A stretch of 64,000 bases of DNA from Streptomyces caniscabiei (GTDB taxonomy: Bacteria > Actinomycetota > Actinomycetes > Streptomycetales > Streptomycetaceae). The stretch covers positions 372,001 to 436,000 of the forward strand of contig NZ_JABXWI010000003.1 in the NCBI RefSeq assembly GCF_014930365.1. The letters are read 5' to 3'. Position 1 is the first letter of the stretch. Every line of letters begins with the position of its first letter. Of the stretch, positions 49,552 through 58,947 are shown one piece after another. The notes beneath the pieces were generated by a model that was not told the origin of the DNA, did not search any database, and saw only the letters and a list, made by a program, of their open reading frames with translations. The position numbers were made by a program, and so were the translations under genes.

Positions 49552-52356
<2,805 letters not shown>

Positions 52357-52398: not shown

Positions 52399-52416
52399 TA
52401 TCTCGATGTCGAGATA
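52399..52416. promoter_or_regulatory. Palindrome TATCTCGA-tg-TCGAGATA between acnA and the VOC gene
   Basis: A perfect 8+8 base palindrome followed by AC. It shares the pattern ATCTC-N6-GAGATAAC with a site in front of the HTH-MurA gene (53719-53737), 1.3 kb away. Confidence 0.65.
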
Positions 52417-52626
52417 ACTGTAGTACATGGGGGCGGGCTGGTCATGCCCGGCCCGATGTGGCGTGCGCCAATCTCCCGCGCGGGAGGGCCGGGCGCGCGG
52501 GCCTTTTATTGCGTTGCGGGGCGTTTCCCGGGCTTCCTAGCATGGTCGTTCCTCGCATGGCTGTTCCTCATGGGCGGGGGACGAGCCCTGTCCGCGGCCG
52601 TGCCGGCGGATCGGAGATCCCACGCG

Positions 52627-53349
52627 ATGACGTCCCACCTCCACGCGCTCAGCTTCGACGCGAACGACCCCGCCGGTCTCGCGCACTTCTGGGCCGGCGT
52701 CCTGGACCGGGAGACGACCGAGGACCCCTACGGGGGCATCGCGCTCGCCCCGGACGACGACACCGGGCTCCGGCTGCGCTTCCTGCCCAGCCAGGAGAAG
52801 AAGACCGTGCCCAACCAGATGCACTTCGACCTCACCAGCACCTCCCTCGACGACCAGCGGCGGATCGTGGCGCGGGCGCTGGAGCTCGGCGGGCGCCACA
52901 TCGACATCGGGCAGCTCCCGGACGAGAAGCACGTGGTCCTCGCGGACCCCGAGGGCAACGAGTTCTGTGTCATCGAACCGGGCAACGGCTTCCTCGCCGG
53001 CTGCGGATTCATCGGCGCGCTCGCGAGCGACGGCTCGCAGGAGGTCGGGTACTTCTGGAGCCGGGCGCTGGGCTGGCCCCTGGTCTGGGACCAGGACGAG
53101 GAGACCGCGATCCAGTCGCCGCACGGCGGCACGAAGATCACCTGGGGCGGTCCGCCCCTGGCCCCGAAGGTCGGGAAGTACCGCCTCCACTTCGACCTCG
53201 TCCCGTCCGCCGACAGCGACCAGCGAAGCGAGATCGACCGCCTGGTCTCGCTCGGCGCGACCCCCGTCGACATCGGCCAGGGCGCGGCCGACTGGGCGGT
53301 CCTGGTCGACCCCGACGGCCACGAGTTCTGCGTACTGCCGCCCCGCTGA
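52627..53349 (+). CDS. VOC (glyoxalase/bleomycin-resistance fold) protein with two domains
   Basis: 240 residues. ATG 52627 follows CGGAG. Two vicinal-oxygen-chelate domains lie in tandem: residues about 1-118 (HALSFDANDPAGLAHFWAGV to GNEFCVIEPGN) and about 125-240 (GALASDGSQEVGYFWSRALG to GHEFCVLPPR). Each ends in the same EFCV strand, and MHFDL / LHFDL appear at matching places. Such proteins bind metal and act as lyases, dioxygenases or antibiotic-binding proteins. Streptomyces has many uncharacterised copies and no function can be set. The preceding 250 bases are non-coding and hold a palindrome. Confidence 0.75.
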   Translation: MTSHLHALSFDANDPAGLAHFWAGVLDRETTEDPYGGIALAPDDDTGLRLRFLPSQEKKTVPNQMHFDLTSTSLDDQRRIVARALELGGRHIDIGQLPDEKHVVLADPEGNEFCVIEPGNGFLAGCGFIGALASDGSQEVGYFWSRALGWPLVWDQDEETAIQSPHGGTKITWGGPPLAPKVGKYRLHFDLVPSADSDQRSEIDRLVSLGATPVDIGQGAADWAVLVDPDGHEFCVLPPR

Positions 53350-53443
53350 GGCAAGTACCCCCCGGCAGAGCCCAGTTGTCGTAGGCGGGAGGGATGCGGA
53401 CCGAAGAGCGGGGTACCCGTCGGGCAACGGGAAGGAGACAGCC

Positions 53444-53641
53444 ATGCCGCTCACGTTCCGCAAGAGCTTCCGGATCCTGCCGGGGGTGCGACTGAACATC
53501 AACAAGCGCTCCTGGTCCATCACCACCGGCGGCCGCAACGGCCCCCGCCACACCCACAGCAGCACGGGTCGCCGTACGACCTCGATGGACCTGCCCGGGC
53601 CCTTCGGCTGGCGCCGCACCCGTGACGCGCGGCGCCACTGA
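53444..53641 (+). CDS. DUF4236 small protein
   Basis: A 65-residue basic protein. ATG 53444 follows GAAGGAG. The start, MPLTFRKSFRILPGVRLNIN, is the DUF4236 signature, then KRSWSITTGGRNGPRHTHSS. Functions of the family are unknown, but it is widespread as a short N-terminal domain or stand-alone protein. It lies between the VOC gene and the HTH-MurA gene, all on the plus strand. Confidence 0.8.
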   Translation: MPLTFRKSFRILPGVRLNINKRSWSITTGGRNGPRHTHSSTGRRTTSMDLPGPFGWRRTRDARRH

Positions 53642-53718
53642 ACACGGCTGACGGTTCGTCACACCCTTCACCCGAACGGGCCCGCGTCACGGCCCCAACG
53701 GACCCCCCAAGAGGCGTC

Positions 53719-53737
53719 ATCTCATATCTGAGATAAC
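53719..53737 (+). promoter_or_regulatory. Operator-like palindrome ATCTCA-tatc-TGAGAT at the HTH-MurA start
   Basis: A perfect 6+6 palindrome followed by AAC, only 13 bases before ATG 53747. There is no room for a ribosome site beyond it, so the mRNA may be nearly leaderless and the palindrome may overlap the -10 region. The protein's own HTH domain is the obvious candidate binder. Confidence 0.7.
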
Positions 53738-53746
53738 CTTGCCCTC

Positions 53747-55276
53747 ATGGCAGACGACTACCTCGAACGCATCGGCAAGCTCATCCGTGACGCCCGGCAG
53801 CACCGCGGCTGGACACAGTCGCAGTTGGCGGAGGCGCTCGGCACGAGCCAGAGCGCGGTGAATCGTATCGAGCGCGGTAATCAAAACATCAGCCTTGAGA
53901 TGATCGCCCGAATCGGTGAAGCCCTCGACAGCGAGATCGTCTCACTGGGCTACGCGGGTCCGATGCATCTGCGGGTGGTCGGCGGACGTCGGCTGTCGGG
54001 TGCGATCGACGTGAAGACCAGCAAGAACGCGTGTGTCGCGCTGCTGTGCGCCTCCTTGTTGAACAAGGGGCGCACAGTGCTGCGCAGGGTGGCCCGCATC
54101 GAGGAGGTGTACCGCCTTCTGGAGGTGCTCGGCTCCATCGGCGTACGCACCCGGTGGATCAACGGCGGGGTCGACCTGGAGATCGTGCCGCCCGCCGAGG
54201 TGGACCTCGACGCGATCGACGCGGAGGCGGCGCGCCGCACCCGCTCGATCATCATGTTCCTCGGCCCGCTGCTGCACCGCATGGACCACTTCAAGCTGCC
54301 GTACGCGGGCGGTTGCGACCTCGGGACGCGGACGATCGAGCCGCACATGATCGCCCTGCGCCGGTTCGGCCTCGACATCACGGCCACCGAGGGGCTCTAC
54401 CACGCCGAGGTGGACCGCTCCGTCGTCCCCGGCCGCCCGATCGTGCTGACCGAGCGCGGCGACACGGTGACCGAGAACGCGCTGCTCGCCGCCTCCCGGC
54501 ACGACGGCGTCACCGTCATCCGCAACGCCTCGTCCAACTACATGGTCCAGGACCTCTGCTTCTTCCTGGAGGCCCTCGGCGTACGGGTCGAGGGCATCGG
54601 CACCACCACGCTCACCGTGCACGGGGTGCCGCACATCGACGTGGACGTCGACTACTCGCCCTCCGAGGACCCGGTCGAGGCGATGAGCCTGCTCGCCGCG
54701 GCGGTCGTCACCGAGTCCGAACTGACCGTGCGCCGGGTGCCGATCGAGTTCCTGGAGATCGAACTGGCGGTCCTGGAGGAGATGGGCCTCGACCACGACC
54801 GCTCGGCGGAGTACTTCGCCGACAACGGCCGCACCCGCCTGGTGGACCTCACCGTCCGCCCCTCCAAGCTCCAGGCCCCCATCGACAAGATCCACCCCAT
54901 GCCGTTCCCCGGCCTGAACATCGACAACGTCCCGTTCTTCGCGGCCATCGCCGCCGCCGCGCAGGGCCAGACCCTCATCCACGACTGGGTCTACGACAAC
55001 CGCGCGATCTATCTGACCGACCTCAACCGCCTCGGCGGTCGCCTCCAACTCCTCGACCCCCACCGGGTGTTGGTCGAGGGCCCCACCCGCTGGCGCGCCG
55101 CCGAGATGATGTGCCCGCCCGCACTGCGCCCCGCCGTGGTCGTTCTCCTCGCGATGATGGCCGCCGAGGGCACGTCGGTGCTCCGCAACGTCTATGTCAT
55201 CAACCGGGGGTACGAGGACCTCGCGGAGCGACTGAACACGGTGGGGGCGCAGATCGAGATCTTCCGCGACATTTGA
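53747..55276 (+). CDS. murA: UDP-N-acetylglucosamine 1-carboxyvinyltransferase (MurA type) with N-terminal HTH domain
   Basis: 509 residues in two parts. Residues 8-66 are an XRE/Cro-type HTH: IGKLIRDARQHRGWTQSQLA, EALGTSQSAVNRIERGNQ. Residues 70-509 are a full MurA domain with the inside-out alpha/beta barrel, including VKTSKNACVALLCASLL (conserved Lys-Asn) and FKLPYAGGCDLGTRTIEPHM. In the latter, Cys190 matches the fosfomycin-reactive Cys of MurA. LEIELAVLEEMG, PMPFPGLNIDNVPFFAA and VINRGYEDLAERL also fit. MurA starts peptidoglycan synthesis by adding enolpyruvate to UDP-GlcNAc. The chain joins DNA binding to cell-wall precursor synthesis or to UDP-GlcNAc sensing. The fusion is known in Streptomyces annotations (recalled), but its role is not. 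Confidence 0.88.
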   Translation: MADDYLERIGKLIRDARQHRGWTQSQLAEALGTSQSAVNRIERGNQNISLEMIARIGEALDSEIVSLGYAGPMHLRVVGGRRLSGAIDVKTSKNACVALLCASLLNKGRTVLRRVARIEEVYRLLEVLGSIGVRTRWINGGVDLEIVPPAEVDLDAIDAEAARRTRSIIMFLGPLLHRMDHFKLPYAGGCDLGTRTIEPHMIALRRFGLDITATEGLYHAEVDRSVVPGRPIVLTERGDTVTENALLAASRHDGVTVIRNASSNYMVQDLCFFLEALGVRVEGIGTTTLTVHGVPHIDVDVDYSPSEDPVEAMSLLAAAVVTESELTVRRVPIEFLEIELAVLEEMGLDHDRSAEYFADNGRTRLVDLTVRPSKLQAPIDKIHPMPFPGLNIDNVPFFAAIAAAAQGQTLIHDWVYDNRAIYLTDLNRLGGRLQLLDPHRVLVEGPTRWRAAEMMCPPALRPAVVVLLAMMAAEGTSVLRNVYVINRGYEDLAERLNTVGAQIEIFRDI

Positions 55277-55379: not shown

Positions 55380-56496
55380 CTACGGGCCGCGCTCAACAGC
55401 CTCTGCGGACTGGCCGCGGCTACGCGAAGATCGCGTCGATGGCGGCGCTGCCCCGGCGCCGGCGCGGGGCAGGAAGTGCGAGTACTTCCGCAGCGTGAAC
55501 CCGGGGTCGGAGTGCCCCAGCCAGCGTGCCAGGGAGACGATTGATTCGCCAGCCTCCAGTTCCTCGGAGGCGTAGAAGTGGCGCAGGGCGTGGAAGCCGT
55601 GCTCCCGGGACGGCTCCCACACGCGAGCACCATCGGTGCCGCCTTCCTCTAGCGATGCGATCACACCCGCTCCGGCCAACGCGGGCTTCCACACGTAGGA
55701 GTTGAAGTAGTTCCGGTTGATGGCCTTCCGTTCGCGTCCCGTCACCAGGAGGTTGTAGGTCCTCGGCCGCCGGTGCTTGGCCTCCACCGGCGTCTCCGGT
55801 GGAGTCGGGTCGTCCCAGGGCAGCGTGACCGGAACCGGCGCGAACAGCTCGATGTGCTGCCGAATGGCCCGGGCCACGCTGGACGGCAGCGGCACGTCCC
55901 TGACCTTGCGGCCCTTGGGAAGCGCGAAACAGAGCTTCGCCCGCACCATCTTGACCTGCCGCCGAACGTGGACGACTTCCTTGGCGAAGTCGATGTCTTC
56001 CAGGGCGAGCCCGAGCGCCTCTCCCTGCCGGAGCCCAAGACCCGCGCCGATCACAAGGAGGAGCCGGTAGCGGTCGGGCAGTGCCTCCCGTACCGCCAGC
56101 ACCCGCTCGGGCGACCACGCCTCGACCCTGCCGGGTGTGGCGGCCGGAGGACCGACCGTGCTGGACCGACAGGGATTGCGTCCGAGACGACGGTCCTCGA
56201 CGGCGGCCTGGAGAACGCTGGAGAGCGTCGCCCAGACCAGACGGATCGAGGTCGGACCGAGGTCCTTCTCCAACCGCTTCTTCCAGTGACGCAGGACTTC
56301 GGTGCCGATGGCGTTGAGCGGCTGAGCACCCAGGTGAGGAACGACGTGCCGACGCACCCTCTGCTCGATCCGCTCGATCGTGGACGGGTCACCGCTCTGG
56401 GTGGGCCACCAGTGGGTGGCGATGTAGTCCTTGAGGGAGATGGCTCCATCGCGCGGATCGACGAACTCGCCTCGGCGTGCGTCGGTCTGGGTGGGC
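55380..56496 (-). pseudogene. int: Tyrosine site-specific integrase, truncated and frameshifted
   Basis: The catalytic domain is well kept: GAGLGLRQGEALGLALEDID (first Arg region), HGFHALRHFYASEELEAG (HxxR), RWLGHSDPGF (His) and LRKYSHFLP (Tyr). The core-binding domain starts near GEFVDPRDGAISLKDYIATH. Upstream the frame runs straight into the end of an IS256-type element at 56496-56497, so the arm-binding domain and start codon are lost. The usual tail GSAAIDAIFA with its stop at 55420 is now in another frame, so a one-base shift lies near 55455-55475. The gene came from an integrative conjugative or mobilisable element of actinomycetes and is surely inactive. Confidence 0.85.
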
Positions 56497-56536
56497 GGGG
56501 TCTGTGTAGCGAACGGTGGAACTCGGTCGGTTTTGT

Positions 56537-57247
56537 TCAGCGGCGTCCGGCGGTGAGCCGGCCGTCGAAGGTGATGTCGAAGGCTTGGAGTGCGGCCTTC
56601 CAGCGGATGGTCCAACGTTTGCGTCCGGTGCCGGTCGGGTCCAGGCTCATGACGGCCAGGTAGACGCACTTGAGGGCGGCCTGGTCTGTGGGGAAGTGCC
56701 CCCGGGCCCGGACGGCCTTGCGGATCCGTGCGTTGATGCTCTCGATCGCGTTCGTGGTGCAGACGATCTTGCGGATCTCCACGTCGAACTGGAGGAAGGG
56801 CACGAACTCCGCCCAGGCCGCCTCCCAGAGCCGGACGATCGCCGGATACTTCCCGCCCCAGGCGTCGGTGAACTCCACGAACCGCTCCAGAGCGGCCTCC
56901 TCGGTCGGCGCGGTGTAGACGGGCCTGAGCGCCTTCGCGATCTTCTCCCAGTCCTGCCGGGCCGCGTAACGGAAGCTGTTCCTCAGCAGGTGAACGACAC
57001 AGGTCTGGACGATCGTCGCAGGCCAGACGGTATTCACGGCATCCGGGAGACCGGTCAGGCCGTCACAGACCAGCATCAGGACATCGGCCGCGCCGCGGTT
57101 CTTGATCTCGGTCAGGACCTGGAGCCAGTACTTCGCACCTTCACCACCGTCGCCGATCCACAGGCCCAGGATGTCCCGGTGCCCCTCGGCGGTGACCGCC
57201 ACCGCCATGTAGACGGGCCGGTTGGCGACCTGCCCGTCCCTGACCTT
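56537..57247 (-). pseudogene. IS256-family transposase, C-terminal part
   Basis: From KVRDGQVANRPVYMAVAVTA to LTAGRR at the stop. It holds the second and third residues of the DDE triad in VLMLVCDGLTGLPDAV (Asp) and CTTNAIESINARIRKAVRA (Glu), and the family motif CVVHLLRNSFRY. It lacks a start of its own; the methionine near 57310 lies in the inserted ISL3 end. Together with the part at 58948-59534 it would make a normal transposase of about 415 residues. Confidence 0.88.
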
Positions 57248-58947
57248 GGTTCTGTCGACGATCTTGTGATCCGGACGGCTGAGTACGTTGCTCCGCCTGT
57301 TCGCGATCATGCATCGCGTGCTCTCGTGATGTGCTCCTGGAGCTGTTTCCGTACCTGTCCGCGCTGCTGATCGAGGAGGTGGAGAGGCGACCGGACCAGG
57401 TGGTGCTGAGAACGCGGGTGCGGGCGACGGCTGGCTCCTGTCGGTGCGGTCAGAGCTCGGCCCGAGTGCACGGCCAGTACGTACGCAGGCTGCGTGATGT
57501 CGCCGTGGGCGGGCTCGGTGTCGTGATCGAGTTATGCGTGCGCCGCTTCCGCTGCGAGAACCCTGCCTGCACGGCGGTGACGTTCGCCGAACAGATCTCC
57601 GGACTGACCACCCCGCACAGTCGGCATACCCCGCTGCTGCGCGAGGTGTTGACGCAGATCGGGCTGGCCCTGGCCGGCCGGGCAGGAGCGCGACTGGCGT
57701 CCGCGGTCGGCCTCACCATAGGTAAGGACACACTGTTGCGGCTGGTCAGGGCCCTGCCCGAGCCGGAGATCGGCAAGGTGGAGATCCTCGGCGTCGACGA
57801 CTTCGCCTTCCGCAAGGGCCGCCACTACGGCACGGTGTTGATCGACATGGCCACCCACCGGCCGCTGCACCTCTACGACGGCCGCGAAGGCGAAGACCTG
57901 GCTGTCTGGCTCCGCGATCACCCCGAGGTGAAGGTCATTTGCCGGGACCGTTCCAGCGGTTACGCGGAGGGCGCTCGGGTCGGGGCGCCGCAGGCCGAAC
58001 AGGTCGCGGATCGCTATCACCTGTGGGCCAACCTCGGCCAGGCGGTCGAGAAGACGGTCAACGCCCATCGCTCCCACCTGGCCGAACCACCTCCCGGCTC
58101 GGCCTCCGGCCCCGACCACGCGGAGGTGGAGCCCGAGGTGGTCCAGCCACCGAAAGACCTGAAGATCGTGATCCGGCTGCGCGAGCAGCATGCTGCCGCC
58201 CATGATCTGTGGCAGCAGGGGATGTCGAAGGCGGCGATCGGTCGGAAGCTCGGGCTGCACCAGGCCACGGTCCGTAAACTGGTCAACGCCCGCTCCGCCG
58301 ATGATGTCGTGGCCAAGAACCTCCAACGAGCACATGTCGTCGACCCGTACGTCGGCTACTTGCACCGGCGCTGGAACGAGGGCGTCAGGAACGCCGCCCA
58401 GCTCTACCGCGAAATCCAGCAACTCGGCTACCCCGGTGGAGAGTTGGCTGTTCAGCGGCATCTGCGGCGCTACCGGACCGGGCGCGGACACGCACCCGAC
58501 CCGGGACCGAAGCCTCCATCGGTCCGCGAGGTCACCTCCTGGATGATGACCCACCCCGAGCACCTGCGAAACGAGGACGCCGACAAGCTGCACCGGCTGC
58601 GTGAGCGCGACCCCGACCTCGACCGGCTCACTCTTCACATCAGGAAGTTCGCCGCGATGATGACCGGCCGCCACGGCGACCGCCTCGAAGAGTGGATCAC
58701 CGACATCGAACGGGACAGCCTGGCTCCGCTTGCGGGCTTCGCCCGCAACCTCCGCCGCGACTTCGACGCGGTCCACAACGGGCTGTCCCTGCCGCACAGT
58801 TCCGGCGCCGTCGAGGGCAACATCAACCGGCTGAAGATGCTAAAACGCCAGATGTTCGGCAGGGCCAGCCTCGATCTCCTTCGCAAACGCGTCCTACTCA
58901 CACGATGAACCCCCAACCCACCGGATCACAAGATCGTCGACAGAACC
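57248..58947 (+). mobile_element. ISL3-family insertion sequence, complete
   Basis: A 1700-base element with perfect 27-base inverted ends (57248-57274 and 58921-58947, outer bases GGTTCTGTCGACGATCTTGT) and an 8-base target duplication CTGACCTT (57240-57247 and 58948-58955). It carries one intact transposase. It sits inside the IS256 transposase gene, so it is the younger insertion, and its perfect ends suggest it is recent and possibly still mobile. Confidence 0.93.
57331..58908 (+). CDS. ISL3-family transposase
   Basis: 525 residues, intact. The N-terminal zinc-binding region has CRCGQSSARVHGQYVRRLRD and RFRCENPACTAVTF. The DDE core shows ILGVDDFAFRKGRHYGTVLI (first Asp), VKVICRDRSSGYAEGARVGA (second Asp) and LPHSSGAVEGNINRLKMLKR (Glu). 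An HTH-like insert (MSKAAIGRKLGLHQATVRKL) lies between. The first codon used here is ATG 57331; a more upstream GTG is possible. It ends 13 bases before the right terminal repeat. Confidence 0.9.
   Translation: MLLELFPYLSALLIEEVERRPDQVVLRTRVRATAGSCRCGQSSARVHGQYVRRLRDVAVGGLGVVIELCVRRFRCENPACTAVTFAEQISGLTTPHSRHTPLLREVLTQIGLALAGRAGARLASAVGLTIGKDTLLRLVRALPEPEIGKVEILGVDDFAFRKGRHYGTVLIDMATHRPLHLYDGREGEDLAVWLRDHPEVKVICRDRSSGYAEGARVGAPQAEQVADRYHLWANLGQAVEKTVNAHRSHLAEPPPGSASGPDHAEVEPEVVQPPKDLKIVIRLREQHAAAHDLWQQGMSKAAIGRKLGLHQATVRKLVNARSADDVVAKNLQRAHVVDPYVGYLHRRWNEGVRNAAQLYREIQQLGYPGGELAVQRHLRRYRTGRGHAPDPGPKPPSVREVTSWMMTHPEHLRNEDADKLHRLRERDPDLDRLTLHIRKFAAMMTGRHGDRLEEWITDIERDSLAPLAGFARNLRRDFDAVHNGLSLPHSSGAVEGNINRLKMLKRQMFGRASLDLLRKRVLLTR

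Follow-up and report, generated by a model that had tools for sequence, protein, structure and literature searches.

A MurA homologue with its own helix-turn-helix domain and a conserved palindrome in its promoter: a probable autorepressing enzyme of actinomycetes

Organization of the locus

The window, the whole stretch of 64,000 nt of Streptomyces caniscabiei DNA that was analysed, contained a gene in which a helix-turn-helix (HTH) domain was fused to the N-terminus of a MurA domain. MurA is the UDP-GlcNAc enolpyruvyl transferase, which carries out the first committed step of peptidoglycan synthesis and is the target of fosfomycin. The open frame at 49552..52302 is called acnA here on similarity and on the position of the S. 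coelicolor neighbour SCO5999. The features considered were as follows.

49552..52302, minus strand: acnA (aconitase) open frame as listed, used as the tblastn query for locus comparison
52338..52356, no strand assigned: iron-box-like sequence before acnA, a possible DmdR1 site (14/19 to the presumed consensus)
52399..52416, no strand assigned: acnA palindrome TATCTCGATGTCGAGATA (18 bp), a probable TamR operator outside the circuit of the fusion, judged from conservation and likeness to tam/tamR sites
53668..53683, minus strand: BldM-WhiI group II-like site TCACCCGAACGGGCCC, 15/16 to TGnnCCGnnCGGGTGA on the other strand (motif from PMC4125116)
53718..53735, no strand assigned: operator-like palindrome CATCTCATATCTGAGATA in the fusion's own promoter, conserved upstream of orthologues
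53734..53739, plus strand: -10-like hexamer TAACCT, 7 nt before the ATG and overlapping the 3' end of the palindrome, of a probable leaderless promoter
53747..55276, plus strand: murA2, encoding the HTH-MurA fusion of 509 aa and orthologous to SCO5998 of S. coelicolor (open reading frame, profile matches and AlphaFold2 model)
53783..53938, plus strand: HTH_3 (XRE/HipB-like) DNA-binding domain, residues 13-64 (Pfam HTH_3)
53981..55234, plus strand: MurA domain of the EPSP_synthase fold, residues 79-496 (Pfam PF00275, 144 bits; NF006873; Foldseek; VIA)

In S. coelicolor, SCO5998 is MurA2 and adjoins the aconitase gene SCO5999, as stated in PMC12161575. The N-terminus of the fusion exceeded the gathering score of HTH_3 (57.1 bits against a cut-off of 23) and matched TIGR03070 (couple_hipB) with an E-value of 3.2e-16 and 59 bits, under the cut-off of 71.65. 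The profile NF006015 also matched the HTH part, to which the PADLOC matches were confined. Against NF006873 the protein scored 320 bits, over the cut-off of 297, and against TIGR01072, the MurA model, 305 bits, under the cut-off of 392.7. The AlphaFold2 model had a mean pLDDT of 89, with the linker residues 65-69 between the two domains below 50. The MurA fold was recovered with Foldseek, for which the best solved MurA was 5u4h (E-value 1.4e-38), and by VIA superposition of the model on Enterobacter cloacae MurA (Z about 46, rmsd 2.0, 415 residues).

A small DUF4236 gene lay upstream of the fusion at 53444-53641 of the window; being present at just 38 of 80 named Streptomyces loci (the best relatives kept from the search), it was rejected as a partner. 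Downstream, window positions 55380-58908 contained open frames that resembled, judged by eye from their translations, an integrase and two transposases. Of 8 frames picked from the neighbourhood of the fusion in genomes G359 and G451, 4 matched no family.

The palindrome before the fusion and its recognition helix

The 16-bp form of the palindrome, ATCTCATATCTGAGAT, was located at 53719-53734, separated by 12 nt from the ATG at 53747. Over 60 orthologue loci, picked for diversity from 12 family codes, the site followed the pattern CTCA-N4-TGAG within TATCTCA-N4-TGAGATA, with CTCA and TGA nearly invariant. At the threshold of 11/14 that was set for this self-type site, it was found before 58 of the 60 orthologues and in 1 of 1,200 random windows of the same loci. 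Conservation before orthologues, on which the earlier note had staked its proposal that the fusion represses its own gene, was observed in 12 family codes. Position 7 was A in 58/58 and position 12 was T in 57/58 of these sites. Before the 80 named Streptomyces orthologues the site was never missing (13/14 in 76 loci and 12/14 in 4), and its core was ATATCT in 69 of them and GATGTC in none. It also preceded the fusion in Nonomuraea gerenzanensis (L294) and Streptomyces sp. BHT-5-2 (L295). Of the plasmid records, 74 matched the fusion, two of them at 80-90% identity (2.8 Mb, linear, and 11.9 Mb), both with the operator; no sign of mobility of the fusion was seen among these 74.

In 55 of the 58 orthologues having the palindrome, a TANNNT hexamer began at its final TA, and in 56 the first in-frame start codon lay 4-9 nt after that position. 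This spacing fits the leaderless mRNA that had been suspected from the window's sequence, and the palindrome would occupy the place of the spacer in a probable leaderless promoter. The -35 element seems weak, because a TTG within 9 nt upstream was present in only 17/58, as against 8/58 for the control word GTT.

The two sampled loci lacking the operator, L251 and L259, were those in which the recognition helix was replaced, namely by MTGTDIEQIEAG and MTEQDIEQIESG, while the other 58 had TSQSAVNRIERG-like helices; both fusions retained an HTH-like N-terminus. Since both genomes belong to genus g27, the loss of helix and operator counts as one evolutionary event. Read from these sequences, the two loci are a natural case in which the fusion has been uncoupled from the operator. 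The conservation of the operator, together with its loss along with the helix, makes it very likely that the fusion autoregulates through the palindrome of its promoter, and the self-repression predicted earlier gains accordingly from the sequence comparison.

The fusion was found in 114 of 394 sampled genomes of the class, representing 25 of 137 genera (E-value at most 1e-100), at 64-96% identity, and in 97 of 121 Streptomycetaceae genomes (E-value at most 1e-60). Counted per genome at any position, a self-type site within 1 mismatch was present in 90 of the 97 genomes with the fusion and in 5 of the 24 without (Fisher p 3e-12, with no correction for kinship). Among the 121 Streptomycetaceae genomes, 95 had such a site, each with one or two occurrences. 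The genome of the window's own strain had no second such site within 1 mismatch, and two weak sites appeared within 2 mismatches of a slightly different pattern; the regulon therefore looks local. The five fusion-less genomes with a match were G060, G063, G078, G086 and G088. Four such sites from three of them were inspected, and three had an AACGTT core, which we have taken as another site type. A related palindrome with this core, TATCT(C/G)AACGTTGAGATA, was seen in L226 and L227 near position 1500 and in contig C17 of G088, also in fusion-less genomes, and it formed a second site in eight genomes of genus g18.

On this evidence we consider it likely that the fusion is a working MurA carrying its own repressor domain, that is, an autorepressing enzyme, and that the palindrome before acnA is a separate site, probably for TamR. 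Two HTH domains of the fusion would bind TATCTCA-N4-TGAGATA in its own promoter, presumably as a dimer and presumably for repression rather than activation. Because the operator overlaps the -10 of the leaderless promoter, the bound protein should block RNA polymerase, and this exclusion would provide negative feedback on the amount of MurA. It appears that a family of enzymes distributed across the class of actinomycetes brings along both its repressor and its operator. In Streptomyces the protein would serve as a second MurA, with BldM-WhiI adding sporulation control, and in several other actinomycete lineages it would be the only MurA.

Within this scheme the feedback may depend on concentration only, with a real operator and no effect of ligands on DNA binding, a form to which we give close to an even chance; it needs just the anatomy described above, and the linker joining the HTH and MurA domains was of low confidence in the model. 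What speaks against it is indirect, namely that ligands of MurA could couple to the linker. Titles of solved MurA structures include complexes with UDP-GlcNAc, UDP-MurNAc and a PEP-Cys adduct, and from these the product-charged state (UDP-MurNAc plus the PEP-Cys adduct) would be the natural candidate for a signal. Our guess is that UDP-GlcNAc, PEP or UDP-MurNAc modulates the binding of the fusion to DNA. We propose only tentatively that the protein is a ligand-gated homeostat, in which UDP-GlcNAc, or the state with UDP-MurNAc and the PEP-Cys adduct, determines how tightly the protein holds its operator. If this were true, the first committed step of wall synthesis would, in lineages with a sole MurA, be controlled by the enzyme acting as a transcription factor. 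Whether the state of the precursors is coupled directly to transcription can be tested with a single protein and a single DNA fragment.

Another, unlinked regulator might instead bind the self palindrome, with the HTH domain of the fusion serving elsewhere or only dimerising the enzyme. The promoter is already known to be controlled by a different system in Streptomyces: murA2 of S. venezuelae (sven5810, vnz_28735) is a reported target of BldM-WhiI, which left a DNase I footprint on its promoter, with the motif TGnnCCGnnCGGGTGA (PMC4125116), and the BldM-WhiI-like site of the window lay 34 bp upstream of the fusion's palindrome. Binding of the operator by the fusion's HTH, as in the reading we prefer, is moreover deduced by comparing sequences. 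Yet the self site accompanies the gene across the 12 family codes, is scarce elsewhere in the genomes, and is absent from the loci with a replaced recognition helix, so that an unlinked regulator is unlikely. As for other control of murA2, overexpressing the gene reportedly did not mimic, in exploration, the phenotype that overexpressed whiI produces (PMC11005364), and a SigB-dependent promoter of SCO5998 has been reported (PMC8346170); the published letters of the latter were absent from the S. violaceoruber locus L066, the single related locus checked.

The MurA domain, genomes with a sole MurA and relation to known systems

Residues K93, N94, R166, C190, R195, D393, R419, R461 and R487 were invariant in 35 aligned sequences, that of the window included, which bears out the Cys190 and Lys-Asn (Lys93-Asn94) that the earlier note had pointed to in the HTH-MurA fusion. 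By sequence alignment they are the equivalents of Lys22, Asn23, Arg91, Cys115, Arg120, Asp305, Arg331, Arg371 and Arg397 in the E. coli MurA numbering. At the position of Asp369, all 35 sequences had alanine (Ala459 in the fusion), within an invariant CPPALRP motif. Several active-site residues of MurA are named in PMC4062475 and PMC4790336, in which Asp369 appears as a residue of the fosfomycin or PEP site, and PMC4062475 reports it as conserved across its MurA set. The loss of Asp369, together with the missed TIGR01072 cut-off, suggests that catalysis may differ from that of canonical MurA.

Outside Streptomycetaceae, 30 of the 74 fusion-bearing genomes were examined, and 14 of these had no MurA homologue besides the fusion (E-value at most 1e-10, with the canonical MurA of the window's own strain as the query). 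In each of the 14, PF00275 matched AroA and the fusion alone. The operator was retained in 12 of them and absent from two. As the sole MurA homologue, the fusion should be a working enzyme in these genomes, and judging from these gene complements it should act as the cell's MurA in such lineages. For the same reason Asp369 was not taken as defining MurA, and the sequences predict an active MurA that lacks it.

The fusion could also be a pure regulator, with its MurA domain a catalytically dead ligand sensor like those of HTH regulators with an enzyme-derived domain, a view favoured by the missing Asp369, the subthreshold TIGR01072 score and the presence of a canonical MurA as well in Streptomyces. 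It is made very unlikely by the invariance of the catalytic Cys, Lys, Asn, Arg and Asp equivalents and by the 14 genomes that have the fusion as their sole MurA homologue.

In the genome complement of Streptomyces, the fusion is a second MurA copy next to the canonical one. A third MurA/EPSP-like paralogue, 25% identical to the fusion, was encoded in the strain's own genome at G000:C23:53299-54552 (L285). The fusion was split over two frames in three genomes, at G043:C1:2095128-2096653, G121:C4:6256469-6257988 and G288:C1:1261840-1263365; in G288 a sequencing error seems likely, since the split fusion is the sole MurA homologue there.

Canonical MurA (TIGR01072; the enzymes of E. coli, E. cloacae and Acinetobacter baumannii) shares the fold of the fusion (Z 45-46) and the equivalents of Cys115, Lys22, Asn23, Arg120, Asp305 and Arg397, although identity to the solved MurA chains listed in the VIA comparison was 24-30%. 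Unlike it, the fusion has an N-terminal HTH, alanine for Asp369 in CPPALRP and its own operator. Work on how cells set the amount of MurA has dealt mostly with inhibition and degradation. Enzymes are known that repress their own genes, and trigger enzymes or bifunctional enzyme-repressors such as PutA and BirA bind DNA to control their own pathway; the fusion differs from these in having an XRE-type HTH on a cell-wall enzyme and an operator apparently limited to its own promoter. Similar in arrangement are regulators of the BzdR and BoxR type, with which the NF006015 match of the HTH part was associated, HTH_3 proteins in which a shikimate-kinase-like domain acts as the sensor: as in the fusion, an XRE HTH is followed by an enzyme-derived domain, but some genomes have no MurA homologue other than the fusion.

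The murA2 gene, its developmental control and an NCBI family model that scores the fusion as MurA (NF006873) are already known. By position and name, SCO5998 and sven5810 (MurA2) are the same gene as the fusion; the passages considered from PMC12161575 and PMC4125116 treat it as a second peptidoglycan enzyme and do not mention the HTH, its own operator or a role as sole MurA. Among the literature matches listed, taken by title and abstract and with most subscription papers outside reach, there was neither an HTH-MurA fusion nor an autoregulated MurA. Nor did these matches mention a conserved operator of the fusion gene, the disappearance of that operator together with the helix, or the fusion acting as sole MurA.

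The palindrome before acnA and other features of the acnA/VOC gap

The 16-bp form of the acnA palindrome, ATCTCGATGTCGAGAT, was located at 52400-52415. The earlier note had described this site and that before the fusion as two matching palindromes and had suggested acnA or the neighbouring VOC gene as a second target. Both palindromes were present where it had placed them, but they did not match each other, the core being GATGTC in 59/59 acnA sites and ATATCT in 69/80 self sites. The strain's own genome (10.9 Mb) contained 8 exact ATCTC-N6-GAGAT sites, and with one mismatch allowed at least two matches arose in 20 of 100 shuffles of the window, so within the window alone the pair does not stand out from chance. 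Each site is nevertheless considered real because of its conservation, at 80/80 fusion loci and at 59/59 acnA loci, the latter being those of the 80 named Streptomyces loci that contained the 5' end of acnA.

On the self-type pattern the acnA site scored 12/14, above the self threshold of 11, with the same half-site spacing; it differed exactly at the positions fixed in self sites, having G and C at 7 and 12 against their A and T. In 30 fetched loci with an acnA-type site (L171-L200, of 96 genomes), a distance of 47-165 bp separated the site from the first residues of acnA in the alignment. The exact acnA-type site was present in 82/97 genomes with the fusion and retained in 14/24 without it, so that a weak association remains (Fisher p 0.009, with no correction for kinship). 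It still preceded acnA in G073, G126 and G132, the three fusion-less genomes among the fetched loci. In genus g7, counting exact matches only, it occurred in 0/14 genomes although 12 of the 14 had the fusion.

In the strain's own genome, the next-best acnA-type match had 2 mismatches and was flanked by genes for a MarR protein and a trans-aconitate 2-methyltransferase; a site with 3 mismatches lay 30 bp from it. Comparison of tam and tamR in 12 genomes, 3 of which had no tamR match in the locus and 6 of whose tam genes passed the NF010703 cut-off, revealed a TATCTYGAYRTCRAGATA-like palindrome (at least 12/16) between the two genes in 9/9 loci with tamR beside tam. TamR, a MarR-family protein unrelated to the fusion, is described in a review as a repressor of the aconitase gene whose DNA binding is attenuated by citrate and trans-aconitate (PMC5487221). 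By its likeness to the tamR/tam sites, the acnA palindrome is probably a separate site, a putative TamR operator.

That a single operator, present in two copies, lets the fusion repress acnA (or the VOC gene) as well as its own gene, as the equal spacing, the 12/14 score and the commoner occurrence of acnA-type sites with the fusion might suggest, is most improbable given the different cores (GATGTC before the fusion in 0/80), the retention of the acnA site in fusion-less genomes, the absence of exact matches from g7 and the resemblance to tam/tamR. A shared operator of the fusion and acnA was accordingly rejected as the main reading, though some cross-binding may occur, which corrects a tempting but wrong link of the fusion to aconitase. 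The VOC gene, which matched Glyoxalase_6 with 162 bits, was found at 0/80 named Streptomyces loci (E-value at most 1e-20; 76 of the 80 include 5 kb upstream) and was dropped as a partner for this reason.

Scored against the presumed DmdR1 consensus, the best iron-box-like sequence reached 12-15 of 19 in 58/59 Streptomyces acnA loci. The iron-box-like sequence of the window agrees with a prediction in PMC12161575, which places a DmdR1 site between SCO5998 and SCO5999. According to that paper SCO5998, not SCO5999, is anti-correlated with dmdR1; iron control may therefore concern murA2 too.
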